Of a stretch of DNA of 38,508 nt, positions 4,648 to 36,175 are shown piece after piece. The stretch spans positions 1-38,508 of the forward strand of contig JAJDOB010000164.1 in the NCBI GenBank assembly GCA_022340385.1, written 5' to 3'. The notes under the pieces were generated by a model. It was not told the DNA's origin, did not search any database, and saw only the letters and a program-made list of their open reading frames with translations. A program made the translations under genes and the position numbers. The DNA comes from Rhodobacter sp. (GTDB lineage Bacteria > Pseudomonadota > Alphaproteobacteria > Rhodobacterales > Rhodobacteraceae). The stretch's first letter is position 1; the number at the start of each line of letters is the position of its first letter.

Positions 4648-5565
<918 letters not shown>

Positions 5566-6468: not shown

Positions 6469-6488
6469 TTGGTCGTCCTTTTCTTTCA

Positions 6489-8534: not shown

Positions 8535-8538
8535 TGTC

Positions 8539-11544: not shown

Positions 11545-11564
11545 GCGGGCACTCTGAAACCAAA

Positions 11565-11594: not shown

Positions 11595-11624
11595 CCGCCG
11601 AAACAACAAACCGGATCGCATCCC

Positions 11625-16371: not shown

Positions 16372-16372
16372 C

Positions 16373-18761: not shown

Positions 18762-18764
18762 GCG

Positions 18765-20288: not shown

Positions 20289-21676
20289 ATCGGGTCGCAT
20301 CCAATCCCCTGCGTCCGCAGCTTTGCGCGGATCAGGCGCGGGCCTATGACCGTGAAACAGTCTTGGGCGCATGGGATCCGGCAGACGATACATTCATGGC
20401 GGGCGCTGACAACCGTCCGATGAATGCCCGATGGAGATCCGAGGATTTTCCGACCCTTCAATCGGCGGTCGATCACGCCGTTCTTGACGCTTTGGATACC
20501 GGGCGAACCGACCGTATCTTCATCGCCGTCCCGCCCGGCTGCCACCAGGGCCCGGTCTGCCTGCCGGGCCTGTCGGTCAACGGATGCGATGTGCCCTTTA
20601 CCCTTTTCGGAACGGGTGCGGAGGCCTCCGAGGTCGAGATTGTGGCCCGCATCGACGCCAGAATGCCGGGTGCCGAATATGCCGCCCGGTACGATGCGCA
20701 TTTCGCGCGAAGCCCGCCTGACATTGCGAATAACCACGCGCGTGTACGGGCCCGCGACACGCTGTCGACCGGCAACGCGGCCGTCCTGCGGGTGCTGGGC
20801 GACGGGACGCAGCTGAAGAACCTGACCATTCGCAACGCCTATGGTTGCGACCGCGCCACGACCGACCCGGATGCCCGCCGCAACGCCCAGGGTCAGCTTT
20901 CCGACGAAACCCACCAGGCTGTCGCCCTGCTGATCGACGGGGCCGACCGGGTGCATTGCGAAAATGTCCACCTTCACAGCCATCAGGACACGCTTTTCCT
21001 CGACAGATCGCCACGGCATCCGGTTTCCCGGTCATATTTCCGCAACTGCCTGATCGAGGGCGACGTCGATTTCATCTTCGGGCCTGCCCTTGGATATTTT
21101 CAGGCCTGCGAGGTTCGCTCGCTGGGCTCACGCTCGCCGAATTCCTGGGCGACAGCCCCCAGCACCGATATCCGCGACCCGTATGGTTTCGTCTTCGACT
21201 ATTGCGACTTTACCCATGACGGCAGCGAAACCGCACCAAGGGGCCGCTTTCGCCTTGGCCGGCAATGGTTTTGCGGCGTCCGGGCTACCCCATACGGCAC
21301 CGCGCCGATTGCCGGGTATCAATGCCGCCTGGCAGACATCTCTGAATATACGCCGCCTGCCGGAACCATTAGCCGCACGACGCTGATGGCCGTCGGAAAA
21401 TGCGCGATCCTCAGATCCCGCATCGGCGCACATATCAACGCCCAGGCCCCGTGGGACGACTGGAAAGGTGGCCAGTACCGCGCTGACGGCAGCTATCACA
21501 ACGTCGCGTGGGATCCGCGATTCAGGCCGGTACAGTTCACCGCCGATGACATCGGATCGCACCTTGCAGATTGGCAGGATCTTGGCCATCTCGACCTTAC
21601 AACAACCGGACCGGGCCGGATCTTCCTGGCGGAATTCGAAAACATCCGCAGCGATACGCGCAGCGGCAACATATGA
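20285..21676 (+). CDS. Pectinesterase (CE8 family), apparently cytoplasmic
   Basis: Removes methyl esters from galacturonan. The 463-residue protein shows the CE8 right-handed beta-helix signatures: Q211 in [13 protein letters not shown], the [10 protein letters not shown] block with Q234 and acid D235, nucleophile D262 in [11 protein letters not shown], and R326 in LGRQW (usually LGRPW). The N-terminus ([17 protein letters not shown]) is polar, with neither a signal peptide nor a lipobox, and the start is fixed by the ATGA overlap with garD. The enzyme is therefore probably intracellular and works on methylated oligogalacturonides after import by the ABC transporter of the same operon. A non-classical export route cannot be excluded. 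Confidence 0.92.
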
Positions 21677-21689
21677 ACAGGAGCACAGC

Positions 21690-23216
21690 ATGCTTGATAA
21701 ATCGACATTCACCCCGCACGGAAAACACCTGATCGCGGGTGACTGGGTCGCCGGCGAGACCACGTTTTCATCGGAACCCGCCCACGGGCCGGTGCATGCG
21801 TTCAGCGTCGGCACTCCTGATCTGGTGGACCGCGCCTGCACCGCGGCCGAAGCGGCGTTTGCGACCTACGGGTATTCCAGCCGCGCCGACCGGGCAGCGT
21901 TTCTGAATGCCATCGCCGACGAGATCGAGGCGCGCGGCGAGGCGATCACCGAGATCGGCAGCCAGGAGACCGGTCTGCCAGAAGCACGGTTGCAGGGCGA
22001 ACGCGGACGCACCACCGGCCAGCTGCGTCTGTTTGCCGAACATATCCTGAAGGGCGATTACCTTGACCGCCGTCACGATGTCGCGCTGCCCGACCGCGCG
22101 CCGCTTCCGCGCCCGGACATGAAGATGGTGCAACGGCCCATCGGCCCGGTGGCCGTGTTCGGCGCGTCGAACTTTCCGCTGGCGTTTTCCACGGCGGGCG
22201 GCGATACGGCTGCCGCGCTGGCGGCGGGCTGTCCGGTGGTGGTCAAGGGCCACAGCGCGCATCCGGGCACGGGCGAGATCGTGGCCGAGGCGATTCACGC
22301 CGCGATCAGGTCCTGCAACCTGCATCCCGGCGTGTTCAGCCTGATCCAGGGCGGCAAGCGGGATGTCGGCACGGCGCTGGTCACACATCCGTTGATCCGC
22401 GCGGTCGGGTTTACCGGCTCGCTTGGCGGTGGCCGCGCCCTGTTCGACCTGTGCGCGCAGCGGCCAGAACCGATACCATTCTTCGGTGAACTCGGCTCGG
22501 TCAACCCGATGTTCATCCTGCCGGGCGCGATGTCGGCCCGGGGCGCGGCCATCGCCCAGGGCTGGGCCGGATCGCTGACCATGGGCGCGGGCCAGTTCTG
22601 CACCAATCCGGGCATCGCCGTACTGATCGACGGGCCCGACGCGGACGCCTTCACCGAAGCGGCAACCAGCGCGCTGCAACCAATAGCCGCGCAAACCATG
22701 CTGACCGACGGGATCGCCGCCGCCTATCGGTCGGGCCGCGACCGGGTCGCGGGCAGCGCGGGCGTGCAGGCATTGCTGACCTCGACCTGCGATTTGCGCA
22801 ACGCCACTCCGTATCTTTTTGCCACGACGGGCAAGCAGTGGCTGGCCAACGAGGCGCTGGGCGAAGAGGTGTTCGGCCCGCTTGGCCTGATCCTGCGTGT
22901 CGATGATGCAGGGGAAATGCTGGCCATTGCCCGTTCGCTTCACGGCCAGTTGACCTGCACCCTGCACCTGGATGCCAGCGACACGGCGCTGGGCCAGCAG
23001 CTGATGCCGGTGCTGGAACGCAAGGCGGGCCGGGTGCTGGCCAACGGCTTTCCGACCGGGGTCGAGGTTTGCGACGCAATGGTGCATGGCGGGCCCTATC
23101 CGGCCAGCACCAACTTTGGCGCAACTTCGGTGGGCACGCTGTCGATCCGCCGGTTCCTGCGGCCGGTCTGTTATCAGAACCTGCCCGATGCCCTGTTGCC
23201 CGCCGATCTGGCATAG
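21690..23216 (+). CDS. Alpha-ketoglutarate semialdehyde dehydrogenase
   Basis: Oxidises 2,5-dioxovalerate (alpha-ketoglutarate semialdehyde) to 2-oxoglutarate with NAD(P)+, the last step of the aldarate and pentonate routes. The 508-residue protein has N161 in GASNFPLAFST, E267 in FFGELGSVNP and nucleophile C304 in GQFCTNPG, with the ELGSVNP/FCTNPG pair typical of this subfamily. The track start at 21468 lies inside the pectinesterase gene; ATG 21690 has an AGGAG site and a normal length. It is the only such dehydrogenase in the window, so the uronate, aldarate and arabinose branches all appear to depend on it. It is the last gene of the rightward operon. Confidence 0.93.
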   Translation: MLDKSTFTPHGKHLIAGDWVAGETTFSSEPAHGPVHAFSVGTPDLVDRACTAAEAAFATYGYSSRADRAAFLNAIADEIEARGEAITEIGSQETGLPEARLQGERGRTTGQLRLFAEHILKGDYLDRRHDVALPDRAPLPRPDMKMVQRPIGPVAVFGASNFPLAFSTAGGDTAAALAAGCPVVVKGHSAHPGTGEIVAEAIHAAIRSCNLHPGVFSLIQGGKRDVGTALVTHPLIRAVGFTGSLGGGRALFDLCAQRPEPIPFFGELGSVNPMFILPGAMSARGAAIAQGWAGSLTMGAGQFCTNPGIAVLIDGPDADAFTEAATSALQPIAAQTMLTDGIAAAYRSGRDRVAGSAGVQALLTSTCDLRNATPYLFATTGKQWLANEALGEEVFGPLGLILRVDDAGEMLAIARSLHGQLTCTLHLDASDTALGQQLMPVLERKAGRVLANGFPTGVEVCDAMVHGGPYPASTNFGATSVGTLSIRRFLRPVCYQNLPDALLPADLA

Positions 23217-23306: not shown

Positions 23307-24041
23307 TCAGCCGCGTCCGATATACGGCATTGCGGGCGCCATCACGGTCATGAACTGAACATTCGCGTCCAGCGGCAGGCTGGCCATGTGCAAGACCGAC
23401 GACGCAATATGCGCCACATCCATCATCGGCTCGACCGCGATCGAACCGTCAGCTTGCGGCACGCCCTTGGTCATGCGCCTGGACAGTTCCGTCAGCGCGT
23501 TGCCGATGTCGATCTGTCCGCAGGCGATTTTGAACGCCCGCCCGTCCAAAGAAATGCTGCGCGTCATGCCCGTGATCGCATGTTTCGATGACGTATACGG
23601 CGCCGAACCCCAGCGTGGAACATGCGCGGAGACCGATCCGTTGTTGATGATCCGGCCACCCTGTGGATCCTGATTGCGCATGATCGAAAAAGCGGCCCGC
23701 GCGCAGATGAACGAGCCGGTCAGGTTGACCTCCATCAGGTTGCGCCATTCGTCCAGCGTGATCTCGTTGAACAGCTTGCCCGGCAGGCTGGCACCGGCAT
23801 TGTTGAACAGCGCGCCCAGATTGCCCCATTCCCCGACGGCCGCCGCAAACGCGTCTTCGACCTGCTGTTCCTGCGTCACGTCGCACGGCAGCACCAGCGC
23901 GGCCGGGTTTGCGTCCGCGGTTTCCGCCAGCGCATCGGCGCGGCGTCCGACCAGGCCGACATTCCAGCCCGCGTCAAGAAACGCCCTGGCTGTGGCGCGG
24001 CCGATGCCGCTGCCCGCCCCGGTGATTATGATGTTCTTCAT
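23307..24041 (-). CDS. Short-chain dehydrogenase/reductase (classical SDR)
   Basis: A 244-residue classical SDR: cofactor motif TGAGSGIG (7-14), NNAG (80-83), catalytic Ser in NNGSVSAH (about 136-138) and Y149xxxK153 in YTSSKHAITG. R33-R34 after the second strand could favour NADP(H), but this is not decisive. It is the last gene of the leftward TRAP operon, downstream of a UxaA-like dehydratase, where a reductase or dehydrogenase acting on a keto sugar acid (for example a tagaturonate- or fructuronate-type reductase, or a deoxy-keto acid dehydrogenase) would fit. The substrate cannot be read from the sequence. AAAGGAAAG supports the start. Confidence 0.88.
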   Translation of the reverse strand: MKNIIITGAGSGIGRATARAFLDAGWNVGLVGRRADALAETADANPAALVLPCDVTQEQQVEDAFAAAVGEWGNLGALFNNAGASLPGKLFNEITLDEWRNLMEVNLTGSFICARAAFSIMRNQDPQGGRIINNGSVSAHVPRWGSAPYTSSKHAITGMTRSISLDGRAFKIACGQIDIGNALTELSRRMTKGVPQADGSIAVEPMMDVAHIASSVLHMASLPLDANVQFMTVMAPAMPYIGRG

Positions 24042-24244
24042 GCCAGTCTTTCCTTTCCCCCCGACTGCATCACGGGGATGCCCGGTTCGGTTTCAGCAGT
24101 CTCGACCGTAATCGACCCCGTCGCAAGCCGGGCGCGCGCCATGTGGGTGTTCAGGATGCCGGGGCGATCTGGCGCGCTGCCCGGGGAATCGGTCAGATCG
24201 CGTGGCGGCCTGATGCCTGGACACCCGAAACGCTCCGCCTTCAA
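24038..24244 (-). CDS. Possible 68-residue small ORF filling the uxaA-SDR gap (doubtful)
   Basis: The 203-nt gap holds an open frame that begins (TTG) directly after the UxaA stop, in the same frame, and ends in an ATGA overlap with the SDR start. Codon third positions are mostly G/C, as in real genes here. It has no clear RBS, no hydrophobic segment and no recognisable domain. It could be a small gene, a decayed end of a once longer UxaA or another gene, or chance openness in GC-rich DNA. Confidence 0.25.
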   Translation of the reverse strand: MKAERFGCPGIRPPRDLTDSPGSAPDRPGILNTHMARARLATGSITVETAETEPGIPVMQSGGKERLA

Positions 24245-25780
24245 CTATCCGGTCACACCGATCGGCCAGGGCGCGAATTCTTCTGCACCGACCCCCAGTG
24301 CCTCGCTTTTCGAGGGTTTGCCAGAGGCGACCGCGAGGATCTCTTGGAATATCGCCGCAGCCATCTGGTCCAGCGTCGCGCTGCCGTCGATCACCATGCC
24401 GCAGTTGATGTCCATGTCGCCCTGCATGCGTGCATACATCGGCGTGTTGCTGGCCAGCTTGATCGTCGGAGACGGGTATGAGCCAAAGCAGGATCCGCGC
24501 CCGGTGGTGAAACAGATCAGGTTCGCCCCGCCCGCGATCTGCCCGGTGGCGGCGACCGGGTCATAGCCGGGCGTGTCCATGACAACCAGACCGCGCGCGG
24601 TCACCGGCTCGCCATAACGATACACCGCCTCGATGCCGGTAGAGCCGCCCTTTTTCGCGCCGCCCAGCGCCTTTTCGATGACATTGGCAAGCCCGCCGTC
24701 CTGGTTTCCTGGGCCGACGATGCCCTGCATCTGCACATCGCGCCCGTCAGTGTAACCCAGCCACCAGCCGATGCGATCCAGCAACTGACGCCCCACTGCC
24801 TCGGATCGCGCCCGCGCGGTCAGCGTGTGTTCGATTCCGAAAAGTTCCGGCGTTTCCGACAGGATCGCGGTGCCGCCCTGGCGCACAAGCAGATCGACCG
24901 CGCGCCCAAGTGCCGGGTTTGCCGACAGGCCGGAAAACCCGTCCGATCCGCCGCATTGCAGGCCGATGCGGATATGTTCGGCGGATTGCGACGTGCGCTC
25001 AGCACGGTTGGCACGCTGCAGCATGTCGGCGACCCGGGCAATCCCGGCCTCGATCGCGGCAGCGGTCCCGCCCACGGACTGCATCCGCACGGTATGCAGC
25101 ATGGTGCCGGTCTCAAGCGCGGTATCCGCGAAGAACCGGTCGAGATTGTTGCGCTCGCATCCCAGCGAGCAGATCAGAGCGCCCGCCATGTTGGCATGGG
25201 TGATGTAACCTTTCAGCGTGCGGCGCAGCAGGTCCATCGGTTCGCCTGTAGCCTCCATCCCGCAGCCTTGCTGGTGGATGAACGGGATCACGCCATCGAC
25301 ATTCGGATAGCCCGCCAGGCGTTCCGGCGTGAAATGCGCGGCGATCCGGCGTGCGACCGTGGCGGCGCAGTTCACCGTGATGAAGATGCCGATGTAGTTG
25401 CGGGTGCCGACACGTCCGTCCGCCCGGGCAAAGCCCCGAAACGTGGCGCGCTTATCCTGCGGCAACAGGTTTGCGGGCACATAATCCTGGGCAAAGCGAT
25501 AGTCCTTCTGCACCTCGTCCATCAGTACGTTGTGGACGTGCATCCATGTGCCGGGGGCCGTGTCTTCACCTGCAAAGCCGATGACCGTGGTGTATTTCAG
25601 TACCGGGTCGCCCTTGGCGATATGGCAAGTGGCCAGTTTGTGCCCGGCAGGAATGGCCTGCAACGCGGTCACGCCTTCGCCAGGTATCGCCGCCCCTGCC
25701 GGGATATCCCGCCGTGCGACAACAACATTGTCTTGCGGATCAAGGCGGATGACAGACGCAGTGCCGTCGGGGATGGTCAC
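24245..25780 (-). CDS. UxaA-family altronate dehydratase-like hydro-lyase
   Basis: A 511-residue UxaA-family protein with an N-terminal SAF domain (about residues 5-80) and catalytic domain with QQGCGME, CSLGCERNN, LQCGGSDGFSG and CFTTGRGS. The ending (GKPSKSEALGVGAEEFAPW) is like altronate dehydratase and unlike GarD, so it may dehydrate D-altronate or a related aldonate to 2-keto-3-deoxygluconate. The track start at 25897 runs into the esterase gene; GTG 25780 with a GAAAGG site leaves a 13-nt gap and a standard length. No tagaturonate reductase (uxaB) or isomerase (uxaC) is present, so the neighbouring SDR may take that role or the substrate may be different. Confidence 0.88.
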   Translation of the reverse strand: MTIPDGTASVIRLDPQDNVVVARRDIPAGAAIPGEGVTALQAIPAGHKLATCHIAKGDPVLKYTTVIGFAGEDTAPGTWMHVHNVLMDEVQKDYRFAQDYVPANLLPQDKRATFRGFARADGRVGTRNYIGIFITVNCAATVARRIAAHFTPERLAGYPNVDGVIPFIHQQGCGMEATGEPMDLLRRTLKGYITHANMAGALICSLGCERNNLDRFFADTALETGTMLHTVRMQSVGGTAAAIEAGIARVADMLQRANRAERTSQSAEHIRIGLQCGGSDGFSGLSANPALGRAVDLLVRQGGTAILSETPELFGIEHTLTARARSEAVGRQLLDRIGWWLGYTDGRDVQMQGIVGPGNQDGGLANVIEKALGGAKKGGSTGIEAVYRYGEPVTARGLVVMDTPGYDPVAATGQIAGGANLICFTTGRGSCFGSYPSPTIKLASNTPMYARMQGDMDINCGMVIDGSATLDQMAAAIFQEILAVASGKPSKSEALGVGAEEFAPWPIGVTG

Positions 25781-25793
25781 GCCGAAAGACCTT

Positions 25794-27434
25794 TCATTGG
25801 CAACTGAAACTGTCGGAACTGGCCGGATCGGCCCCGGTATAGCGCGCGACCTGCGGATAGGGGCAAAGCTTGCGACCGACCACGCCCAGCGCGGCACGCC
25901 CTTCGTTGTTGTCCTCTGTCACTTCGGTGTTTATCGCCCCGGGGCGAACACCGTTCTCGACCCAGTTCACAAGCGGCGTGAACATGTCGAATCCATCGGC
26001 ATGCGGCCCCCGCATCGAATGCGGTTGACCCGGATTGCGATAGAACAATACGAAATCCCCGGCGTTGCCGCCGTTGTTTTCATCAAGCTTCCGATACCAG
26101 CGCGCGGTATCCTGAACCGAAAACACCGGATCGCTGTTGCCGTGCAGGATCAGCATCTTGCCCCCGGCATCCCGGAATTCCGCCAGCGTCGGGTCGTCGA
26201 CATCGGGTGGCGTCATGACTGCCATCGCACTTTGATCAAATGACCCATCCGTGGCAAAAATCTTTTCCGCCTCGGCGGCGATATCAAAATCCATCAGGTA
26301 CTGTTCCAGCGCCTCGGGCGAGCCCTCGACACGCGTCGGCGGAGTCGTGAAGATCTGCGCCAGCGACGCCGCCCCCATCACCGCGATGATCGGCTTGTGA
26401 CCCCAGGGCGGGATCGGGCTTTCCAGTTTCCAGAACCGCCAGCTGCCAGAGGCGATGCCGGCATCCCAGGCCCAGTCGGAATAAAGCGCGCTGCCGTCCG
26501 CCGCCTTCGGTCCTGCATGGATCGTCTCAAGCGCCGCGACCTGTGCCGCACTCAGGCAATCAGAGTTCTGACCTTCCCGGCAAACCATGGCCTTGGGATC
26601 GAATGTATCCTGACAGCGATCCGCATCGGCGATCCAGCCGTCTTTCAGCCCGTCAAGCCCGTCGCAGGCGGCCAGGATCGCGGTGGCCACAAACTCCAGA
26701 TCTTCACGCGGGAATGCCGATTTCAGGTCGGCATCGACACTGCGAAAACTTTGCACATCCAAGGCGTGCTGCAGAGCCGCGCGCGGCAGGTTGAATCCGG
26801 GATAGCCGACCAGCAGCCCGTCAAAGGCCTCGGGCATCCGCGAGGCCGCGACCATCGCATGACGGCCACCGTTCGACCGGCCAACACCGTAGGCAAAGGC
26901 GATGTCCTGCCCGTAATAGGCCTCGGTCAGCGCGGTGGCGACCGGTTGCAGATCGGCGACGGCGGAATACCCATAGGCCGCACGCGCCGCCGGATCGAAG
27001 CCGAACCTGGCACCCCCGGCAAGACCCGCGTCGGGAAAGGCATCGCCGCTATGCCCGGCATCCGATGACACGACCGCATAGCCGCGGTTCAGCGCGGTGT
27101 CGTTTGTATAGCCGCTGTTCAATTCACCGATCGCGGGTTTGACCTCGCCGTCGTTGCCGCCGTTGAACTGGTGCACGAAGCGGCCGTTCCAGTCGTCCGG
27201 CAGGCGCAGTTCGAACTTCAGCGCATAGGACATGCCGTCAACACCGGTGCGATCGTTCATCCGTCCGGTAAAGCGGCAATGCGCCCGCTCGAACCCGTCA
27301 CCGACGGCCACCGCCTCTGCGGTCTCCAGCGTGACTCCGGCCGGAGGGGTCAGCCCCGCGACATTGCAATCCGCGCCAAACGCGCTTGAAGCCATCGACA
27401 GGCCGATGACCGTTCCGGCAAGGTAGCGTTTCAT
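25794..27434 (-). CDS. Exported tannase/feruloyl esterase-family protein lacking the usual cysteine pair
   Basis: From ATG 27434 (GGAGG-like site, MKRYLAGTVIGLSMASSAFGA signal peptide) the protein has 546 residues and is exported. The catalytic serine is S187 in GRSNGGRHAM, with acid D435 in LHGNSDPVFS and H472 in GQPHSMRG, the order expected for the tannase family. Characterised members have a CS-D-HC motif in which the two cysteines next to Ser and His form a disulfide; here they are R186 and S473. Other cysteines remain (for example CDGLDG and the C-terminus). It probably cleaves aromatic or acyl esters on plant polysaccharide pieces before uptake by the TRAP system; the substrate is inferred only. 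Confidence 0.85.
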   Translation of the reverse strand: MKRYLAGTVIGLSMASSAFGADCNVAGLTPPAGVTLETAEAVAVGDGFERAHCRFTGRMNDRTGVDGMSYALKFELRLPDDWNGRFVHQFNGGNDGEVKPAIGELNSGYTNDTALNRGYAVVSSDAGHSGDAFPDAGLAGGARFGFDPAARAAYGYSAVADLQPVATALTEAYYGQDIAFAYGVGRSNGGRHAMVAASRMPEAFDGLLVGYPGFNLPRAALQHALDVQSFRSVDADLKSAFPREDLEFVATAILAACDGLDGLKDGWIADADRCQDTFDPKAMVCREGQNSDCLSAAQVAALETIHAGPKAADGSALYSDWAWDAGIASGSWRFWKLESPIPPWGHKPIIAVMGAASLAQIFTTPPTRVEGSPEALEQYLMDFDIAAEAEKIFATDGSFDQSAMAVMTPPDVDDPTLAEFRDAGGKMLILHGNSDPVFSVQDTARWYRKLDENNGGNAGDFVLFYRNPGQPHSMRGPHADGFDMFTPLVNWVENGVRPGAINTEVTEDNNEGRAALGVVGRKLCPYPQVARYTGADPASSDSFSCQ

Positions 27435-27475
27435 CGGGGTTCCTCCGGTCATACGGGTATGGTGTGATGCGGCAA

Positions 27476-28195
27476 TCAGCGACCGTTGCCGGCGCGCCAT
27501 TCCTTGAATTTGTCCAGATTATCCTGCTTGGTCGCAGGGTAAAGTCCGATGATCGTCGCACCCGCCAGAACCTGTTCGGCGACGAAATCCTCATACGCCG
27601 TCATCTCGACCGCCTCGTCCGCGACCTCATCCGCCAGATGCGCCGGAATCACGATGACGCTATCGTCGTCGCCCACGATGATATCACCGGGAAAGACCGG
27701 CGCGTCGCCACAGCCGATCGGGACGTTGATGTCGATCGCCTCGTTGATCGTCAGGTTGGTGGGGCTGGCCGGGCGGCTGTGATAGGCGGGCATTTCCAGT
27801 GCGCCGATCCGCATCGCGTCGCGAAAACCACCATCGGTCACCACGCCAGCACCACCGCGCACCATCAGCCGGGTGATCAGGATGTCGCCCGCCGAGGCGG
27901 CGCGCGCGTCCTTGCGGCTGTCCATCACCAGAACATGCCCCGGCGGACAGGTTTCAATGGCGTGGCGCTGCGGATGCTGCGGGTTGCGGAACTCGGCCAG
28001 CGTGTTGCGGTCTTCGCGCGCGGGCATGTAACGCAGCGTGAATGCAGGCCCGACCATGTTGCGGCCCTTGGGGCCGATGGCGCGAACGTCCTGAATCACC
28101 TGGTTGCGCAGGCCACGCTTGAAAAGCGCGGTGGCCAGAGTCGCAACGCTGACGCCTTTCAGTTTCTCGATGGTTTCCGGTTTCACGTCGGTCAT
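27476..28195 (-). CDS. RraA-family protein (HMG-aldolase/oxaloacetate decarboxylase-like)
   Basis: A 239-residue RraA-like protein. Catalytic features of the aldolase/decarboxylase members are present: the SAGD turn (about 101-104) and D121-G-G-F-R125-D126, which bind the metal and the keto-acid. The well-studied RraA regulator of RNase E lacks catalytic function, but context here is metabolic, with IlvD/Edd and DapA-family enzymes directly upstream. It could split a 4-hydroxy-2-oxo acid into pyruvate plus a second product, decarboxylate a beta-keto acid, or act on a deoxy-keto sugar acid. It lies 15 nt after the DapA-family gene. Confidence 0.85.
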   Translation of the reverse strand: MTDVKPETIEKLKGVSVATLATALFKRGLRNQVIQDVRAIGPKGRNMVGPAFTLRYMPAREDRNTLAEFRNPQHPQRHAIETCPPGHVLVMDSRKDARAASAGDILITRLMVRGGAGVVTDGGFRDAMRIGALEMPAYHSRPASPTNLTINEAIDINVPIGCGDAPVFPGDIIVGDDDSVIVIPAHLADEVADEAVEMTAYEDFVAEQVLAGATIIGLYPATKQDNLDKFKEWRAGNGR

Positions 28196-28210
28196 GTGTC
28201 GTTCCTTGTT

Positions 28211-29119
28211 TCAGCCCCGGCCAGTCAGGCCATGTGTCTGCATGAATTCGGTCAGCCGCCCGATCTGTTGGCCCGAAAGCGGCCATGCGGCGGGTGGGCG
28301 GGCGCCGCCACAATCCTCGCCCATCAGCTGCAACGCCGCCTTGACGCCGGGCACGTTGGCGCCGCCCTGTTCCTCGGCGCGGATGTCCTCGAACACACGC
28401 ATCTCGGCGATAAGGCTGCGCGCCAAAGCGTAATCTCCGGCTTCCAGGGCGGTGCTGATCGCGACCGAGCGTTCGGGCCAGACATTGATCAGCCCGCTGG
28501 TAAAGCCCCGTGCGCCGACCGCATAGAATGTCGGGGCCCAGACCTCTGCAAGGCCACCGACCCAGACGATATGGTCGGGCGACGCCTCCATCGCCGCTTT
28601 CAGTTTCATCGGGTTGGGCGTGGCCCATTTGACGCCGATCACGCCGGGAACCGCGCAAAGCGCGGCAATCGCATCGGTTCCGATGGCGTCGTTGCGCAGA
28701 TAAAGCACCAGGGGCAGACCGCCCGCAGCCTGGCGCACGGCTGCAAGATAATCGACGATGCCGCGCGGCGCGACGAAGGGATCTGGCGGCTGGTGGATCA
28801 TCAGCGCATCCGCTCCCGCATTGGCCGAAGCTTCGGCAAGACGACAGGCATCGCGAATGCTGCGCCCGACGCCGGCGACCAGCGGGCAGCGCCCCGCGAT
28901 ATGGGCCGCCGCAGCCTGCACCATCGCCACCGCCTCGTCCGTATCGAGGCTGTAGAATTCGCCGGTGTTGCCGTTCACGGTAAGCACATGCACCCCCGCC
29001 GCCAGTGCGCGCTCCACAATCGGCGCCTGCCGTTCCGGTGCGATTTCGCCCGCACTGTCGAACGGGGTCACCAGGATGCCCGATATGCCCGTCAGCGCCC
29101 GTTTCAGGTCATGCGGCAT
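28211..29119 (-). CDS. DapA-family lyase/dehydratase (KdgD-like)
   Basis: A 302-residue DapA-superfamily barrel. Motifs are NGNTGEFYSL (about 49-58, as in KdgD), Tyr140 in VLYLRN and Schiff-base Lys164 in GVKWATPN. It is a cousin, not a copy, of kdgD at 4648: the GGTGEF motif is replaced by NGNTGEF and the Lys context differs. It likely acts on the 2-keto-3-deoxy acid made by the dehydratase upstream, either as an aldolase releasing pyruvate or as a decarboxylating/dehydrating enzyme. ATG 29119 overlaps the stop of the dehydratase gene, which decides against the longer frame to 29260. Confidence 0.87.
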   Translation of the reverse strand: MPHDLKRALTGISGILVTPFDSAGEIAPERQAPIVERALAAGVHVLTVNGNTGEFYSLDTDEAVAMVQAAAAHIAGRCPLVAGVGRSIRDACRLAEASANAGADALMIHQPPDPFVAPRGIVDYLAAVRQAAGGLPLVLYLRNDAIGTDAIAALCAVPGVIGVKWATPNPMKLKAAMEASPDHIVWVGGLAEVWAPTFYAVGARGFTSGLINVWPERSVAISTALEAGDYALARSLIAEMRVFEDIRAEEQGGANVPGVKAALQLMGEDCGGARPPAAWPLSGQQIGRLTEFMQTHGLTGRG

Positions 29120-30849
29120 CAGTTGATCTCTGGCTCTGGCACCGGCTCGCCGAATTCGGTGCGCAGAAAATCGAAATCGCAGCCCTTGTCGGCCTGCTCG
29201 ACATGACGCGAGAACATCCAGCCATAACCGCGCCCGTAGCGCGGTTCGGGAGCCTGCCATCTGGCGCGCCGCGCATCCATCTCGGCATCGGTGATCTGCA
29301 CGTTCAGCTTTCGGTTCGGCACGTCCAGTTCGATGATATCGCCGGTTTCGATCAAGGCCAGCGGCCCGCCGATGAACGCCTCGGGCGCGACATGCAGGAC
29401 GCAGGCACCATAGGATGTGCCGGACATCCGCGCGTCGGAAAGCCGGACCATATCGCGGTGCCCGTCCTTAAGCAGCGCCTGCGGCATCGGGATCATGCCC
29501 CATTCCGGCATCCCCGGCCCGCCCTGGGGCCCGGCGTTGCGCAGGACCAGCACGTGATCCGGTGTCATCGGATAGTCGGGATCATTGATGATCTTCTTCA
29601 ACTCGGGATAACTGTCGGCGACGATCGCCGGCCCCTTGTGACGGTGAAATTTGGGATCGCAGGCAGCCGGCTTTATCACCGCCCCGTCGGGCGCAAGATT
29701 GCCGCGCAGGACCGCCAGCGAGCCCTCGTGATACAGTGGGTTCGACAGCGGGCGGATCACGTCGTCATTGTAGTTGACCGCACCGGCGATATTGTCGCCC
29801 AGACTGCGCCCGTTCACCGTAGTGACGGACAAATCCAGCTTGTCGCCCAGTTCCTTCATCAGTGCCGGCAACCCGCCGGCATAAAAGAAATCCTCCATCA
29901 GGTATTCCTTGCCCGATGGCCGGATGTTGGCCAGAACCGGCACCTCGTGACCGATCCGGTCCAGATCGTCGAGGCCCCAGTCGACACCGGCGCGGCGCGC
30001 CATGGCGATCAGGTGGATGATCGCGTTGGTCGAACATCCCGTGGCCATCGCCACGGTCGTGGCATTGGCCGTGGCCTCGCGGGTGACGATCTTGTCAGGA
30101 GTCAGATCCTCCCACACCATTTCGACGATGCGGCGGCCGCAGGCAGAGGCCATGCGTTTGTGCCCGGCATCCGGTGCCGGGATCGACGAGGCGCCGGGCA
30201 GGGTCAGCCCGAAGCCTTCGGCAATCGACATCATCGTGCTGGCGGTGCCCATCGTCATGCAGGTGCCGTAACTGCGCGCGATTCCGCCCTGCACACCGTC
30301 CCACTGTTCCTTGCCGATGGTTCCGGCGCGGCGTTCGTCCCAGTATTTCCAGACATCGGTGCCGCTGCCCAGCTTCTGCCCCGCATAATTGCCGCGCAGC
30401 ATCGCACCGGCAGGCAGGAAGATGAACGGCAGCCCCATCGACAACGCGCCCATGATCAGCGCCGGAGTCGACTTGTCGCAACCGCCCATCAGCACGACGC
30501 CATCGACCGGGTGCGAACGCAGGGTTTCCTCGACCTCCATCGCGCCCATGTTGCGGTACAGCATCGAGGTCGGCTTCAGGAACTGTTCGGAAAAATCATG
30601 CACCGGCAATTCGGCCGGCATGCCCCCGGCCTGCAGGATGCCTTTGCGGACAAACTCTGCCCGGTCGCGCAGATGGTGGTGGCAGGGCGACAGATCCGAC
30701 CACGTATTGATGATCGCGATCACAGGCTTGCCGTCCCAGTCTCCGTCATCCAGCCCCATCTGCATCGCGCGGCTTCGGTGCCCCATCGAGCGCAGGTCAT
30801 CCGGCGCGAACCATCGGGCAGAGCGCAGGTCTTTGTATTCCTTGGGCAT
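29119..30849 (-). CDS. IlvD/Edd-family sugar-acid dehydratase
   Basis: A 576-residue Fe-S dehydratase of the sugar-acid branch of IlvD/Edd (L-arabonate, D-xylonate and similar dehydratases). Cluster cysteines are C56 (SPCHHHL), C124 (GGCDKS) and C197 (YGTCMTMGTAS); the catalytic serine lies in ARMSGTSYG. It removes water from an aldonic acid to give a 2-keto-3-deoxy acid. Its position next to a TRAP transporter and a DapA-family enzyme suggests import and dehydration of the same acid. A second, different member (37099-38508) lies in the arabinose cluster. GGAGA precedes ATG 30849; the 40-residue membrane protein ends 10 nt upstream. Confidence 0.9.
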   Translation of the reverse strand: MPKEYKDLRSARWFAPDDLRSMGHRSRAMQMGLDDGDWDGKPVIAIINTWSDLSPCHHHLRDRAEFVRKGILQAGGMPAELPVHDFSEQFLKPTSMLYRNMGAMEVEETLRSHPVDGVVLMGGCDKSTPALIMGALSMGLPFIFLPAGAMLRGNYAGQKLGSGTDVWKYWDERRAGTIGKEQWDGVQGGIARSYGTCMTMGTASTMMSIAEGFGLTLPGASSIPAPDAGHKRMASACGRRIVEMVWEDLTPDKIVTREATANATTVAMATGCSTNAIIHLIAMARRAGVDWGLDDLDRIGHEVPVLANIRPSGKEYLMEDFFYAGGLPALMKELGDKLDLSVTTVNGRSLGDNIAGAVNYNDDVIRPLSNPLYHEGSLAVLRGNLAPDGAVIKPAACDPKFHRHKGPAIVADSYPELKKIINDPDYPMTPDHVLVLRNAGPQGGPGMPEWGMIPMPQALLKDGHRDMVRLSDARMSGTSYGACVLHVAPEAFIGGPLALIETGDIIELDVPNRKLNVQITDAEMDARRARWQAPEPRYGRGYGWMFSRHVEQADKGCDFDFLRTEFGEPVPEPEIN

Positions 30850-30859
30850 CGGGGTCTCC

Positions 30860-30982
30860 TCAGGAGATGGAATTGGCGAAATGGAACATTACCCAGACCA
30901 GCACCAGACCAAGCACCACGCCGCCGATCCAGGGCCAGACGCCGTAACCGTCCATGTCGTCTCGGGAATCACGTCCGATCAT
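30860..30982 (-). CDS. 40-residue single-pass membrane protein in TRAP operon (not in ORF track)
   Basis: Hand translation gives MIGRDSRDDMDGYGVWPWIG, a hydrophobic helix (GGVVLGLVLVWVMFHFA) and NSIS, then TGA. A GGAGG site lies 6 nt ahead of the ATG, and the ATG overlaps the DctQM stop (ATGA). The acidic N-terminus and one membrane helix suggest a small inner-membrane subunit with its C-terminus at the membrane edge. The tight fit between the permease and dehydratase genes, with standard RBSs on both sides, argues that it is real. A modulator or assembly partner of the fused TRAP permease is a reasonable guess. Confidence 0.75.
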   Translation of the reverse strand: MIGRDSRDDMDGYGVWPWIGGVVLGLVLVWVMFHFANSIS

Positions 30983-33072
30983 AGGGAACCTCCATTCAGG
31001 ATTTCAGGCAACCACAAAGCGATCTGCGGGTACATCATTACCAGGAACAGGCCGAGGATCTGCAACCCGATGAATGGCAGCACAGAGATGAATATCTCTT
31101 GCAGCGTGACATCCTTGGGCGCGACCGACTTCAGCCAGAAACAGGCCGGACCAAACGGAGGCGACAGGAAATAGATCTGGATGTTCATCACGAAAAGGAT
31201 GCCGAACCAGATCTTGGCCTGATCGGGCGACAGGCCCAGGTCGGGGGCAAGTTCCATCACCACCGGCGCAAAGACCGGAACCGTGATGAACACGATCGCG
31301 ATCCATTCCATGAACGTGCCCAGCACCATCAGGATCAGCATCATCACCAGCACCGTGCCCATCGCCGACAGGCCGAGGTTCAGAAACAGCGAGCGCATGA
31401 AATCGCCGCCGCCGACCAGATTGAAGATGCCGACAAAACTGACCGCCCCCAGCACCAGCCAGATGATGGTGCCGACGGTGGACATCGTGCCTATCAGCGC
31501 CGCGGTCGTGACGCTCCAGTTGAAACGGTTGCGCACGGCGGCCACGAACAACGACCCGATACAGCCGACCGCAGCGGCTTCGGTGACCGAAGCCACGCCG
31601 CCATAGATCGAACCCATCACCGCCGCGATCAGGATGATACACAGCAGCACCGCCGTCAGACGGTCTTTCGACAGCTTCTGTTCGGTGCCGCCGGATATCG
31701 CCGCGACCTCGGCGGCAGTTGGGGCCAGTTTCGGGTTCAGGTTGACCCGGATCAAGACATAGCCGGCATAGAATATCGCCAGCATGATACCCGGTACGGC
31801 GCCCGCCATGAACAGATCGCCGATCCCGACTTCGGCCGACAGCCCGTAGACGATCATGATGATCGACGGCGGGATCAGCGTCGCCAGCGCGCCGGCCGCG
31901 CAGATCAGGCCGATCGACAGTTTCCGGTCATAGCCAAGGCGGAACATCTGCGGCAATGCAACCAGCCCCAGCATCACGATCTCGCCGCCCATGACCCCGG
32001 ACATCGCCGCAAGGATCACGGCCACCACGGTTGTCTGAACCGCCACGCCGCCGCGCAGGTTGCCCGCAAAGATCGACATCGCGTCGAACAGATCCTCGGC
32101 GATTCCGGCCCGTTCAAGGATCGAGGCCATCAGCACGAAGAACGGCACCGCAACCAGCGAATAATGTTCCAGCAGGCCGACCGCGATTGATGACACCAGA
32201 AACAGGCCGCGCGGCCCGAAAAAGGTGATCGCCATGATGACCGAGACGATCAGCGTCACGATGCCCAGCGGCATGCCCGTCATCATCAGCGAGATCAGCA
32301 GCGCCACCATGATCAGCGAGACCGTCCCAAGATCCATCGAGCGCATGTTCAGCGCCTTCGACGGGTCCATCGCCTTGCCGATATCCGAGAAGAAATCCGC
32401 AATCGCCGCGGCCCAGGAGATGTCAAAGGCATGGCCCAGCAGCGCCGCCACGAAATAGAAGCCAATGTATGCCGCGACCGCCTTGACCACGAGCCTTGCG
32501 CCACGGCTTTCGAAATGACGGTTCAGGTTCACCAGAAGCTGCGCCAGATACAGGAACGCGCCGGTGACCATCAGGGATTTCAGAACCATGGGCAGCGGCG
32601 AATTGAACGCCGATCCGGATTTCTCAAGCCGCCCGATACTGTCATAGGCACGGATCGCGGCATCCGAGAGCAGGAAATAAAGCGCAATGACTCCGACCGT
32701 CATCGCGAACAGATCCAGCCACCAGCGCTGGCGCGGACTGGCGAGGATATGGAAGACGGTGATCGCGATGTGACGCTGCTTCAGCGTGATGAAGCCCGAC
32801 GACAGCATCCAGGCAGCGGCGCAAAGCATCATCACCGTCTCGAACGCCCAGTAGGTTGGCGCGTTCAGAACATAGCGGGAAAACACCTCGTAAAGCGTCG
32901 CAAGCGCGGCAATCAGATAAAAGCAGGAAATGGCGATGCCAAGGAGATGGCTGAAATGATCCACCGGGGTGTAGTCGGCCCGATCGACGACATTTTCCTC
33001 TTCGTGCACGGGATCAAGGCCCGATACCTCCAGCGGCGCGTCGTTCAGCTTGTCTTCGTAGTTTCCGCTCAT
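30979..33072 (-). CDS. TRAP transporter permease, fused DctQ-DctM
   Basis: From ATG 33072 (GGGGG site; the track start 33111 is less likely) the protein has 697 residues. The N-terminal fifth to third is a DctQ-like four-helix domain (ISCFYLIAALATLYEVFSRYVLNAP, FETVMMLCAAAWMLSSGF). The rest is a DctM domain with about twelve helices, including GMPLGIVTL, VPFFVLMASILERAGIAEDLFDAM, IPPSIIMIVYG and FLSPPFGPACFW. This permease uses an ion gradient to import acids delivered by the periplasmic DctP protein encoded just upstream. Q-M fusion is known in the family. A sugar acid is the likely cargo given the operon. Confidence 0.93.
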   Translation of the reverse strand: MSGNYEDKLNDAPLEVSGLDPVHEEENVVDRADYTPVDHFSHLLGIAISCFYLIAALATLYEVFSRYVLNAPTYWAFETVMMLCAAAWMLSSGFITLKQRHIAITVFHILASPRQRWWLDLFAMTVGVIALYFLLSDAAIRAYDSIGRLEKSGSAFNSPLPMVLKSLMVTGAFLYLAQLLVNLNRHFESRGARLVVKAVAAYIGFYFVAALLGHAFDISWAAAIADFFSDIGKAMDPSKALNMRSMDLGTVSLIMVALLISLMMTGMPLGIVTLIVSVIMAITFFGPRGLFLVSSIAVGLLEHYSLVAVPFFVLMASILERAGIAEDLFDAMSIFAGNLRGGVAVQTTVVAVILAAMSGVMGGEIVMLGLVALPQMFRLGYDRKLSIGLICAAGALATLIPPSIIMIVYGLSAEVGIGDLFMAGAVPGIMLAIFYAGYVLIRVNLNPKLAPTAAEVAAISGGTEQKLSKDRLTAVLLCIILIAAVMGSIYGGVASVTEAAAVGCIGSLFVAAVRNRFNWSVTTAALIGTMSTVGTIIWLVLGAVSFVGIFNLVGGGDFMRSLFLNLGLSAMGTVLVMMLILMVLGTFMEWIAIVFITVPVFAPVVMELAPDLGLSPDQAKIWFGILFVMNIQIYFLSPPFGPACFWLKSVAPKDVTLQEIFISVLPFIGLQILGLFLVMMYPQIALWLPEILNGGSL

Positions 33073-33166
33073 CCCACGGCCCCCTGCAGGCATATGCCAT
33101 GCTGATTTCATACTGAAACGACACCCCAGCGCGCCGGGCGGATTCCCCCGGGTCCAGGTTGGCCGT

Positions 33167-33198
33167 TGGACACCGCCGGCGCAAACCGGCGAGGTCCA
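33167..33198 (-). other. Intercistronic hairpin between dctP and dctQM
   Basis: TGGACACCGCCGG and CCGGCGAGGTCCA pair over 13 bp with two mismatches around a CGCAAA loop, in the 145-nt gap after the DctP stop. There is no T-run. It occupies the same place as the hairpin between the ABC binding-protein and permease genes (11565-11594). Confidence 0.6.
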
Positions 33199-33217
33199 TG
33201 TTCTTGATGACCGACGG

Positions 33218-34249
33218 CTACAGCAGGCCGGCTTCTTTCATGAAGGCGATATGCGCGTCATAGACTTCTTTCGCCAGATCGGACTGGCCGGCGAAATCGC
33301 TCCAGGCTTCCTGCGCGATTGCACGCAGCGCGTCACGCTCGGACTGCGGCCAGTCGATGATTTCCAGGTCGCCGGCGGCCTTGTCACGCGCAACCAGCTG
33401 GCGGTCGAGCCGGTCGAAATACTGGCGCAGGCCGTTGTAGGCGGCGAGATACCAGACTTCGAGCGCAGTCTGCTCCTGCTCGGTCAGTTCATCCCAGACA
33501 GCTTGCCCGACGGTGAATTGCAGGATCGGGGTCGAGTGGATGCCGGGGAAGATCGGGAATTTCGCGATCTTGTGCATGCCATTGGCGTCGTTGTTCGCGT
33601 AGGCAGAGTTGTCCGCCGCGTCGATCACGCCTTTTTCAAGTGCGCCGTAGGTTTCCGAACCGGACATGGAGACCGGCGCCGCGCCCGCACGCTTGAACAC
33701 GTCGGCGGCAAGACCTTCGGGAGAGCGGATCTTCAGCCCGGCCAGATCGGCCACACCGCGCACCGGAACCTTCGAGACGAACGCCTCGCGGGCATAGGCG
33801 CCGCAACCCACGACATGAACACCTTCGTAATGGGCGTCGAACAGTTTTTGCAGCATCTCCTTGCCGCCACCTTGCGCACAGAATGCCTGAATCTGGTCGG
33901 CGCTGTCATAGCCTGCGATCAGATCGCCCATAAGCGCGAATGCCGGATCGACACCCGCGAAGTAGTTGATCGAGGTCAGGTCGCCGTCGAGGATACCGAC
34001 GCTGATCGCTTCGGGGGTTTCACGGCGCGGCACGACGGCGTCGACAGGCAACAGTTCGATCGCAAGCGTTCCGCCTGTCATCGTTTCCAGCTTTGGCAGC
34101 CATTCCTTGTTCAGATAGGCCAGCGACGCATGGCTTGCATTCGACGAAGTCTGGATCTTCAGGACGCGGTCAGCGGCATCCGCCGCGCCCGCGCCGATTC
34201 CCATCACGGCCGCGATGGTCAGGGCTGTGCCCAAAGATTTGATATTCAT
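33218..34249 (-). CDS. TRAP transporter substrate-binding protein (DctP family)
   Basis: A 343-residue periplasmic protein starting at ATG 34249 behind a GGGAGGA site; the longer track frame has no RBS. The signal peptide ends near GAADAADRV (about residue 25). Family features include LKIRSPEGLAADVFKRAGAAPVSM with the conserved arginine that holds the ligand carboxylate, and ETYGALEKGVIDAADN. The family binds organic acids, and here the neighbours point to a uronate or aldonate. It is the first gene of the leftward operon and lies 140 nt from a divergent FadR-type regulator, which probably controls it. Confidence 0.93.
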   Translation of the reverse strand: MNIKSLGTALTIAAVMGIGAGAADAADRVLKIQTSSNASHASLAYLNKEWLPKLETMTGGTLAIELLPVDAVVPRRETPEAISVGILDGDLTSINYFAGVDPAFALMGDLIAGYDSADQIQAFCAQGGGKEMLQKLFDAHYEGVHVVGCGAYAREAFVSKVPVRGVADLAGLKIRSPEGLAADVFKRAGAAPVSMSGSETYGALEKGVIDAADNSAYANNDANGMHKIAKFPIFPGIHSTPILQFTVGQAVWDELTEQEQTALEVWYLAAYNGLRQYFDRLDRQLVARDKAAGDLEIIDWPQSERDALRAIAQEAWSDFAGQSDLAKEVYDAHIAFMKEAGLL

Positions 34250-34325
34250 GAAATTCCTCCCGGGGTGTTCATACGAATTATTGTCCGCCTGCCGCCAAAG
34301 CGAGGTCGGTGCCAAACTGATATAT

Positions 34326-34335
34326 TAGTTGACTA
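34326..34335. promoter_or_regulatory. Candidate FCD-type GntR operator in the dctP/gntR divergent region
   Basis: TAGTTGACTA fits the TNGTNNACNA pattern used by FadR/VanR-type regulators and is a perfect 4+4 palindrome around TG. It overlaps the -35 of the regulator's own candidate promoter, suggesting autoregulation and joint control of dctP. Confidence 0.45.
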
Positions 34336-34388: not shown

Positions 34389-35105
34389 ATGCAGATGCCT
34401 CACAGTTCCGGCGAACAGTTGCACGCCACCGCCGCAAGTACGGCACCCGAACGGGTCTACCGGGATTTACGCGCGCGCATCATCAGTTTCGATCTGCCGC
34501 CGGGCACCACACTTGGCCGGATCGAACTTGCGGACCGATACGGCGTCAGCCAGACCCCGGTGCGCGAGGCATTGCAGCGGCTGGAAATGGATGGGCTTAT
34601 CCTGATCTTTCCGCAGTCGAAAACCGTCGTTGCCCGCATCGACGTGCGCCAGCTTTCGGAAACCCAGTTCCTGCGGGTATCCATCGAAACCGAAGTCGTG
34701 CGGCGTCTTGCAACCGCACAACGCCCGGATGTCATCAAGCGGGCGCAGGCCATCCTCGAGATGCAGCGCACACTGACCGCCTCGGGTGATGAAGTGTCGA
34801 TGTTCACCGAACTGGACCGGTCATTCCATCTGACACTGTTCAAGGGCGTCGGCATGGAATCCCTGAATGCCATGTTGCTGGATCGTTTGGGACACCTTTA
34901 TCGGTGTCAGCGCCTGGAATTGCCGCGCAAGGGCAAGATGCAGAACATCGTCGATGCCCATCAGGCCATTCTCGACGGTCTGGCCGCGGGCGATCCGGAA
35001 CTAGCATCCGCCGCCATGCGTGAACATCTTTCCGGAACCATCAGCCAGATCGAGATGCTTCGCGACGAATATCCCGACTTTTTTACCAGGGACGAGCTTA
35101 GATAG
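34389..35105 (+). CDS. GntR-family (FCD subfamily) transcriptional regulator
   Basis: A 238-residue regulator. The winged helix-turn-helix spans about residues 20-85 (LGRIELADRYGVSQTPVREALQRL) and the FCD effector domain about 95-225. FCD proteins typically release DNA on binding a carboxylate sugar or organic acid. It is divergent from the TRAP operon and faces araD tail-to-tail, so it most likely controls the TRAP-tannase-UxaA operon and perhaps the arabinose genes. It is clearly different from the first FCD regulator at 3807. AAGGAA lies about 10 nt ahead of ATG 34389; a second ATG 6 nt later is also possible. Confidence 0.9.
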   Translation: MQMPHSSGEQLHATAASTAPERVYRDLRARIISFDLPPGTTLGRIELADRYGVSQTPVREALQRLEMDGLILIFPQSKTVVARIDVRQLSETQFLRVSIETEVVRRLATAQRPDVIKRAQAILEMQRTLTASGDEVSMFTELDRSFHLTLFKGVGMESLNAMLLDRLGHLYRCQRLELPRKGKMQNIVDAHQAILDGLAAGDPELASAAMREHLSGTISQIEMLRDEYPDFFTRDELR

Positions 35106-35231: not shown

Positions 35232-36149
35232 TCACTTGCCCCATTTCAACGCGATCAGGTCCATATCACGCGCCAGTTGCAACAGCCGGTCCCTTGTCCG
35301 CTGCGACAGGGGTTTTTGCGGATGGCGTACATAATCGCTGCCGATCACGCCGCCCTCGGCATAGACCGTCTTGCAGGCGCGCAGCCCGCATTGCCGGTTC
35401 TCGTGATTGATCAGCGGCAGGCATTTCGCCCACTGCGCCAACGCGGCATCCCTGTCGCCCGCCAGAAAATGCGTGACAATCGGGCGGATATGTTCGGGGA
35501 AAAGCCCCGACGTCATCGACGCGGTACAACCCGCATCCAGATCGGCCAGCAGGGTGACCGCCTCTTCGCCGTCCCACGGACCAAGGATATCCTTGCCGCC
35601 TGCCTCGATCAGCGCGGCAAGCTTGTCCGCGGCGAACGGGCACTCGATCTTGAAATAGCCGACATGCTCCAGTTCGCGCGCCATTCGCACCAAAAGCGGA
35701 ACCGAAAGGACCACCCCCGACAGTGGCGCATCCTGCACCATTATCGGAATGTCGATGGCATCGCTGACGGCCTGGAAATGTTCGAAAATGCCCTGATCGT
35801 CGGCCTTCAGCCCGGACCCGTGATAGGGCGGCATCATCATCAGCATGGACGCCCCCAGCGCCTGGGCGTCACGGGCGCGCCGGGTCACGATGTCGGTGGA
35901 ATAATGGCTGATCGTGACGATCATCGGCACCCTTCCCGCGACATGTTCCAGGCTGACCCGCATCAGCGTTGCGCGCTCGTCATCCGACAGAACGAACTGC
36001 TCGGAATAGTTCGCAAGTATGCAGATCGCATCGACGCCCTGATCAATCAGGCAGTCGAGCACCCGGCGCATGCCTTCCTCGTCGATACGGCCGTCGGCAT
36101 GGAACGGGGTCGGGGCGACAGGCAGAATGCCGGTGAGTGGGGTTTTCAT
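35232..36149 (-). CDS. araD: L-2-keto-3-deoxyarabonate dehydratase (AraD type)
   Basis: Converts L-2-keto-3-deoxyarabonate to alpha-ketoglutarate semialdehyde. The 305-residue DapA-superfamily protein carries the pattern of the Azospirillum enzyme: CILANYSEQF (about 43-52), TISHYST, MPPYHG, IMVQDAPLSG, Schiff-base Lys167 in YFKIECP, GPWDGEEA and LINHENRQ. This set is distinct from both other DapA-family proteins in the window. It is downstream of the dehydrogenase (26-nt gap) and the arabonate dehydratase, in pathway order. The symbol follows the non-phosphorylative pathway and not the E. coli ribulose-5-phosphate epimerase gene. Confidence 0.92.
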   Translation of the reverse strand: MKTPLTGILPVAPTPFHADGRIDEEGMRRVLDCLIDQGVDAICILANYSEQFVLSDDERATLMRVSLEHVAGRVPMIVTISHYSTDIVTRRARDAQALGASMLMMMPPYHGSGLKADDQGIFEHFQAVSDAIDIPIMVQDAPLSGVVLSVPLLVRMARELEHVGYFKIECPFAADKLAALIEAGGKDILGPWDGEEAVTLLADLDAGCTASMTSGLFPEHIRPIVTHFLAGDRDAALAQWAKCLPLINHENRQCGLRACKTVYAEGGVIGSDYVRHPQKPLSQRTRDRLLQLARDMDLIALKWGK

Positions 36150-36175
36150 ATCGGGATCCTCGTGATGGTCGTGGC

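Follow-up and report, generated by a model that had tools for sequence, protein, structure and literature searches.

A GntR-controlled TRAP operon of Rhodobacterales proposed to carry aldarates to α-ketoglutarate through IlvD- and RraA-family enzymes

The window analysed here is a 38,508-nucleotide stretch of Rhodobacter sp. DNA (assembly GCA_022340385.1, forward strand), one entire contig (JAJDOB010000164.1) of a draft Rhodobacterales genome of 3.93 Mb in 305 contigs with 90.6% completeness. Its minus strand carries an operon that joins a tripartite ATP-independent periplasmic (TRAP) transporter to several sugar-acid enzymes, with the gene for a GntR-family regulator divergent from it on the plus strand. 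We think it moderately probable that this operon, under GntR control, converts aldarates, and possibly uronates, to α-ketoglutarate by way of the dehydratases IlvD1 or GarD2, an RraA-family enzyme, the DapA-type proteins DapA1 or KdgD, and an aldehyde dehydrogenase (ALDH). This reading draws on genome context and on one biochemical precedent, the enzyme FlDet. An earlier note on this DNA had proposed an operon for sugar-acid import and catabolism, which our analysis supports. Every gene that it had named at 23307-34249, from DctP to the short-chain dehydrogenase/reductase (SDR), is present on the minus strand; GarD2 is its UxaA-like protein. The operon, its regulator and the proposed last enzyme of the pathway are as follows.

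34389-35105, plus strand: GntR/FCD regulator, divergent from the operon (Pfam FCD and GntR)
34315-34330: predicted GntR operator AACTGATATATTAGTT (consensus AACTAATATATTAGTT, one mismatch)
33218-34249, minus strand: DctP, TRAP substrate-binding protein (PF03480)
30979-33111 (alternative start 33072), minus strand: DctQM, fused TRAP membrane subunits (Pfam DctQ and DctM)
30860-30982, minus strand: 40-residue microprotein with a single transmembrane segment, MIGRDSRDDMDGYGVWPWIGGVVLGLVLVWVMFHFANSIS; its start overlaps the DctQM stop, and it has orthologues
29119-30849, minus strand: IlvD1, IlvD/Edd dehydratase (Pfam), proposed aldarate dehydratase
28211-29119, minus strand: DapA1, dihydrodipicolinate synthase (DHDPS)-family lyase/dehydratase (PF00701)
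27476-28195, minus strand: RraA-family enzyme of 239 residues, proposed 2-keto-3-deoxyaldarate dehydratase/decarboxylase of the FlDet type (PF03737, PRK08245)
25794-27434, minus strand: exported tannase/MHETase-like esterase (PF07519)
24245-25780, minus strand: GarD2, full-length member of the galactarate/altronate-dehydratase family (PF20629/PF04295/SAF)
23307-24041, minus strand: SDR oxidoreductase, peripheral (PF00106)
21690-23216, plus strand: ALDH, proposed α-ketoglutaric semialdehyde (KGSA) dehydrogenase (PF00171; orthologue in relatives' operons)

The genes are closely packed. DctQM and the 40-residue open reading frame overlap in ATGA and IlvD1 and DapA1 in TGATG, while gaps of 15 bp (DapA1 to RraA), 41 bp (RraA to tannase) and about 13 bp (tannase to GarD2) separate the genes that follow, a spacing consistent with one transcript running from DctP as far as GarD2. 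The 203-bp gap after GarD2 makes the SDR the least certain member. Promoter and terminator scans found no more than was expected from shuffled sequences, within about 1 standard deviation. The operon is real and not a chance arrangement, as its gene order is repeated in many genomes, and it is conserved widely among Alphaproteobacteria.

We compared 160 loci, 80 with the closest RraA relatives and 80 drawn from 395 evenly sampled genomes of the order. The conserved core is a GntR gene facing DctP-DctQM-40-residue membrane protein-IlvD-(DapA)-RraA-(GarD-like), and the usual roseobacter arrangement is a divergent GntR gene followed by DctP-DctQM-IlvD-(enolase)-DapA-RraA-GarD2-ALDH-KdgD. Among the 113 distinct loci whose RraA is at least 61% identical to that of the window, the neighbours are IlvD1 (89), ALDH (56), DapA1 (41), TRAP (21), KdgD (20) and GarD2 (19). 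IlvD is co-directional with RraA and immediately 5′ of it in 77 of the 105 loci with room for it. A neighbourhood search for the set IlvD, DapA, RraA, UxaA and tannase had been suggested; the first three and GarD2 do recur, but the tannase is in none of the 113. The rhizobial version combines an ABC transporter and a 2-hydroxyacid dehydrogenase with IlvD, enolase, RraA and ALDH. A tripartite tricarboxylate transporter (TTT) is found in some loci, and a nickel-dependent racemase is added in others. Of the 395 Rhodobacterales genomes sampled, 88 have RraA of the window type, which is also carried by hundreds of plasmids of Alphaproteobacteria, mainly rhizobia.

Other versions of the locus were also seen. 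A Sulfitobacter-type version (L092, L145, L148, L153, L155) includes the nickel-dependent LarA racemase with LarB/C/E, which suggests 2-epimerisation of the sugar acid. In four loci (L035, L015, L023, L144) RraA follows a 346-residue membrane protein in which the motif SLSFDNAIVNANIL is conserved; IlvD is absent, and ALDH comes next in most. A second RraA clade (53-60% identity, L187-L212) is accompanied by a different TRAP transporter, an SDR, an ALDH and sometimes Udh or KdgD, and mostly lacks IlvD.

The operator provides a second line of evidence. An AT-rich palindrome with the core CTAATATATTAG is common to 18 of 18 DctP-GntR intergenic regions examined, and its copy in the window is the sole site there, where 0.01 would be expected by chance. 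Most relatives have the GntR gene in divergent orientation to DctP or IlvD1. The palindrome also lies upstream of relatives' operons for IlvD1, RraA, GarD2 or SBP5b (ABC), mostly beside a GntR gene. The common operator thus ties GarD2 and IlvD1 to one inducer, independently of gene order. We infer that GntR binds the palindrome. The same palindrome marks a GntR regulon in 63 loci across Rhodobacterales and Rhizobiales.

What does the operon act on? The earlier note had argued for another acid than those of the uronate, aldarate and arabinose routes in the window. We replace that suggestion with the aldarates, which best explain IlvD, DapA, RraA and GarD2 together because relatives join these genes to Udh, lactonase, KdgD and KGSA dehydrogenase. 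One relative has the order IlvD-RraA-SMP30-Udh (L066), and in L166/L224 IlvD1-RraA likewise adjoins Udh and an SMP-30 lactonase. Elsewhere Udh-SMP30-GntR-TRAP is divergent from IlvD-RraA (L022), or IlvD-RraA-ALDH stands beside more distant Udh-like and lactonase genes (L173). The L066 Udh and the window Udh (5674-6468) both have S109, N110, H111 and G162, corresponding to the substrate-site residues Ser110, Asn111, His112 and Gly163 of UdhAt. One genome has Udh-ABC-enolases-RraA-KdgD-TRAP-IlvD1-enolase-GarD2 and an arabinose cluster in a single island like the window (G015). Over the 395 genomes, Udh is found in 27 of 88 with RraA and 16 of 307 without (p=1e-9, odds ratio about 8), and KdgD in 29 of 88 and 19 of 307, respectively (p=8e-10, odds ratio about 7). 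A further genome, 99% complete, carries SMP30-Udh-IlvD1-RraA, no KdgD, and a single DHDPS gene that scores like the lysine-pathway DapA (G204). Something else must therefore complete uronate oxidation there, and we regard this genome as strong, though not exclusive, evidence from gene content.

Several observations weigh against an aldarate pathway through IlvD1 and RraA. The same 99%-complete genome has GarD-, enolase-superfamily and HpaI-family genes elsewhere, so an alternative lower route is possible. The association statistics of RraA with Udh and KdgD ignore the kinship of the genomes, and Udh or lactonase adjoins IlvD1-RraA in few loci only. IlvD1 is missing from 21 of the 105 RraA loci, about a fifth. 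The case for homology of RraA with FlDet is built on the family, the length, 19 residues and the gene context, and the 'VS..T' among those residues is partly a trait of the family. Finally, the window ALDH is on the opposite strand, 4.3 kb from RraA and outside the control of the operator.

The precedent for RraA is FlDet of Flavobacterium sp. UMI-01, a purified RraA-family enzyme of 237 residues that converts 2-keto-3-deoxy-D-glucarate to KGSA and whose gene adjoins a KGSA dehydrogenase gene (PMC8563752). Window RraA (348 bits to NCBIfam PRK08245) is of similar length, and its N-terminus may be related: it is identical at 10 of the 19 published N-terminal residues of FlDet, its orthologues at up to 11, and the best of 15,209 non-RraA open reading frames at 8. 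An ALDH gene lies within 2.2 kb downstream of RraA in 38 of 111 loci, where its identity as KGSA dehydrogenase is assumed, as it is not an NCBIfam equivalog. We propose that RraA carries out the same reaction as FlDet. In the oxidative FlDet/FlDeg pathway the ketodeoxyaldarate is made from the alginate product 4-deoxy-L-erythro-5-hexoseulose uronate via FlRed, whereas in these Alphaproteobacteria it would come from a TRAP-imported aldarate via an IlvD- or GarD-type dehydratase.

A role of RraA in C-C cleavage, as first suggested, now seems less likely than dehydration and decarboxylation, and a pure aldolase was demoted once the FlDet precedent was considered (PMC8563752). In the form that keeps the aldarate pathway, RraA would be a metal-dependent pyruvate aldolase giving pyruvate and tartronate semialdehyde, the latter reduced by a 2-hydroxyacid dehydrogenase or GarR-like enzyme. 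This is unlikely. The metal and catalytic residues of 4-hydroxy-4-methyl-2-oxoglutarate/4-carboxy-4-hydroxy-2-oxoadipate (HMG/CHA) aldolase are kept, as G103, D104, R125, D126 and E202 (aldolase Asp102, Arg123-Asp124 and Glu199), and relatives often have a 2-hydroxyacid dehydrogenase nearby (26/113). However, three residues of the acceptor and phosphate site are replaced (Gly144 by L148, Lys147 by N151, Arg195 by M198; residue roles from PMC5065237), ALDH neighbours outnumber the 2-hydroxyacid dehydrogenases, and an NCBIfam search of the genome for the GarR equivalog gave sub-cut-off members only. The context of the window gene is sugar acids, and that of HMG/CHA aldolase is aromatics.

IlvD1 belongs to the same IlvD/Edd family as RlArDHT, the L-arabinonate dehydratase of Rhizobium leguminosarum bv. 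trifolii (PDB 5J83, 9EVV), and its Fe-S cysteines and catalytic residues align with those of that enzyme. It is 46.7% identical to IlvD2, the RlArDHT-type protein of the window, which lies in another operon and scores 870 bits to RlArDHT, where IlvD1 scores 582. The C-terminal His is reported to be fully conserved in known sugar-acid dehydratases (PMC11316719), but IlvD1 ends in ...EPEIN, and 94 of 98 orthologues have Asn, Phe or Tyr at that position and 4 have His. Judged by these sequence differences, the IlvD1 subfamily is distinct from L-arabinonate dehydratase.

These features bear on a different view of the substrate, in which an aldonate or pentonate (e.g. L-arabinonate, galactonate or fuconate) is degraded non-phosphorylatively by IlvD1, DapA1/RraA and ALDH, and the NCBI name of IlvD1 is right. 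IlvD1 does exceed the cut-off of the NCBIfam model for L-arabinonate dehydratase (NF009559, 1056 against 882 bits), and TTT-type loci run IlvD-DapA-ALDH-RraA. Yet the model accepts both subfamilies, IlvD1-type proteins at 1056-1138 bits and the full-length RlArDHT type lower, at 947, so its name does not discriminate between them. The window already has a real L-arabinonate dehydratase and an L-2-keto-3-deoxyarabonate (KDA) dehydratase, and GarD2 and Udh indicate diacids. With the missing C-terminal His and a further difference in DapA1, described below, this makes an aldonate substrate rather unlikely. As to IlvD1 itself, L-arabinonate was rejected as the main reading of its substrate: the arabinose context belongs to IlvD2, the His is absent and NF009559 is non-discriminating. 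That model scores a non-arabinose subfamily higher, and many database names derived from it are doubtful.

DapA1 had been called KdgD-like, which is only weakly true; its score of 126 bits to TIGR03249 is far from the cut-off of 374. The best PDB matches are 3D0C and 3E96. Its conserved core, LYLRND...GVKWATPNP, has Tyr where the L-KDA dehydratase KdaD has a catalytic Glu (PMC13398020), which speaks against an aldonate or pentonate substrate. DapA1 was thus rejected both as KdgD and as KdaD proper. GudL of Enterocloster, a DapA-like 5-keto-4-deoxyglucarate aldolase (PMC11775122), provides a precedent for a DHDPS-family enzyme acting on a glucarate/galactarate intermediate, although its genome context differs. 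GarD2, at 359 bits to TIGR03248 (cut-off 731), was rejected as an equivalog of the galactarate dehydratase GarD.

In the aldarate pathway that we favour, the TRAP transporter and its 40-residue membrane partner would import oxidised hexose acids, that is aldarates and possibly uronates. IlvD1 and GarD2 would each dehydrate different aldarate isomers, or different ends of them, to 2-keto-3-deoxyaldarates. RraA would then dehydrate and decarboxylate one ketodeoxyaldarate isomer to KGSA in the manner of FlDet, DapA1 or KdgD would convert another to KGSA, and the ALDH at 21690-23216 would oxidise KGSA to α-ketoglutarate. The tannase and SDR would be local additions outside the pathway. According to PMC8563752, FlDet acts on the L-erythro isomer, and the intermediate of galacturonate is L-threo. 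RraA may thus take one isomer and the DapA-type enzymes another; the erythro form, for example, might derive from mannarate, or from glucarate by way of its other end.

The scheme has the same start and end as the oxidative uronate pathway of Agrobacterium and Pseudomonas (Udh, lactonase, GarD or glucarate dehydratase, KdgD, KGSA dehydrogenase), several genes of which lie close by, both in relatives and in the window. The proposed difference is that an IlvD-family enzyme stands in for the enolase-superfamily or GarD dehydratase and that RraA replaces or joins the DapA-type KdgD. The end products, enzyme families and overall pathway are known; what is new is the combination, which is undescribed in the open literature searched. 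As the earlier note had expected of the route, no paper found there connects RraA with the routes for uronates, aldarates or arabinonate in these bacteria. More tentatively, and with less than even confidence, IlvD1 may found an unrecognised aldarate-dehydratase subfamily that, as the iron-sulphur partner of an RraA ketodeoxyaldarate dehydratase/decarboxylase, takes uronates to α-ketoglutarate without enolase-type dehydratases or KdgD, with the 40-residue protein as an obligatory extra subunit of this TRAP class.

Databases label the pair, probably wrongly: IlvD1 as 'L-arabinonate dehydratase', its partner as 'ribonuclease activity regulator RraA'. If the proposal holds, a widespread mis-annotation would be corrected, marine and root bacteria would have a second way of processing aldarates, which arise by oxidation of pectin, alginate and other uronates, and the GntR operator would define one testable regulon.

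The transporter itself has the DctP, DctQ and DctM domains of the TRAP class. DctP falls in the lactate/2-keto-acid-binding branch, with 4PE3 and 2ZZV as its best PDB sequence matches; by sequence the closest gives no ligand. The 40-residue membrane protein proposed from the window is a real gene. It is exactly 40 residues long in 25 of 25 distinct orthologues, pN is below pS in 300 of 300 pairs and the median pN/pS of 0.38 indicates purifying selection. The conserved pattern is MIGRDSr.DidGYG.WPW..G..la..ii..Mf.fA.PIS, for which Pfam and NCBIfam hold no matching model. It was found in 12 of 385 genomes scanned, all with the TRAP-IlvD operon and at positions that fit the DctQM-IlvD1 gap, and more distant TRAP transporters of the same kind have counterparts of 53-58 residues with a terminal TG motif. 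It is likely a dedicated, previously undescribed partner of this TRAP transporter, and it is well suited to the question of a fourth subunit in some TRAP transporters.

The exported esterase had been taken to suggest that the substrate reaches the cell in esterified form, acyl or aromatic, with the tannase freeing the acid, TRAP importing it and IlvD/DapA/RraA degrading it. The tannase has a signal-peptide-like N-terminus, it lies inside the operon, and in one relative (L226, 69% identity) it adjoins an ALDH of the same type. But none of the 160 related loci has a tannase nearer to RraA than about 8-10 kb, and the relatives' operon is complete without it. The tannase is sporadic, in 18 of 395 Rhodobacterales genomes, and where a genome has both genes they are at least 200 kb apart or on other contigs. 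This makes the ester route very unlikely, and nothing ties the tannase to the TRAP substrate. Tannases have a CS-D-HC motif, in which one Cys stands beside the catalytic Ser and another beside the catalytic His. The window protein has GRSNGG and PHS instead, so that Arg and Ser replace the two Cys, and its closest PDB match is MHETase. The gene appears to have been inserted locally, between RraA and GarD2, and its product may release pectin-bound acyl groups. The SDR assigned to the operon is present, but it has no conserved link to the other genes: homologues of at least 45% identity are in 3 of 113 RraA loci, all more than 2.5 kb away, and its membership is uncertain.

The rest of the window is a pectin, uronate and arabinose island.

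4648-9420, minus strand: uronate oxidation cluster of KdgD, Udh, hydrolase, enolase-superfamily dehydratase and SMP-30 lactonase
9613-23216, plus strand: oligopeptide-type ABC transporter, hydrolase, two enolase-superfamily dehydratases, GarD1, pectinesterase and the ALDH
35232-38502, minus strand: L-arabinose cluster of KDA dehydratase, Gfo/Idh dehydrogenase and IlvD2 (PDB 7C0C/3FKK, 5J83/9EVV)
37099-38502, minus strand: IlvD2, true L-arabinonate dehydratase, cut by the contig end (PDB 5J83/9EVV)

The L-arabinose route is thus located outside the TRAP operon, in agreement with the earlier note; the DHDPS protein of this cluster matches L-2-keto-3-deoxyarabonate dehydratase (PDB 7C0C, E=7e-104). 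KdgD of the uronate cluster scores above its family cut-off, and GarD1 is a true galactarate dehydratase (TIGR03248 822 bits, cut-off 731). AlphaFold models of RraA and Udh have mean pLDDT values of 52 and 41. A 349-residue protein encoded at 247-1296 has no match in Pfam or PADLOC. A pectinesterase-family gene at 20285-21676, between GarD1 and the ALDH, favours a role of the island in pectin use.

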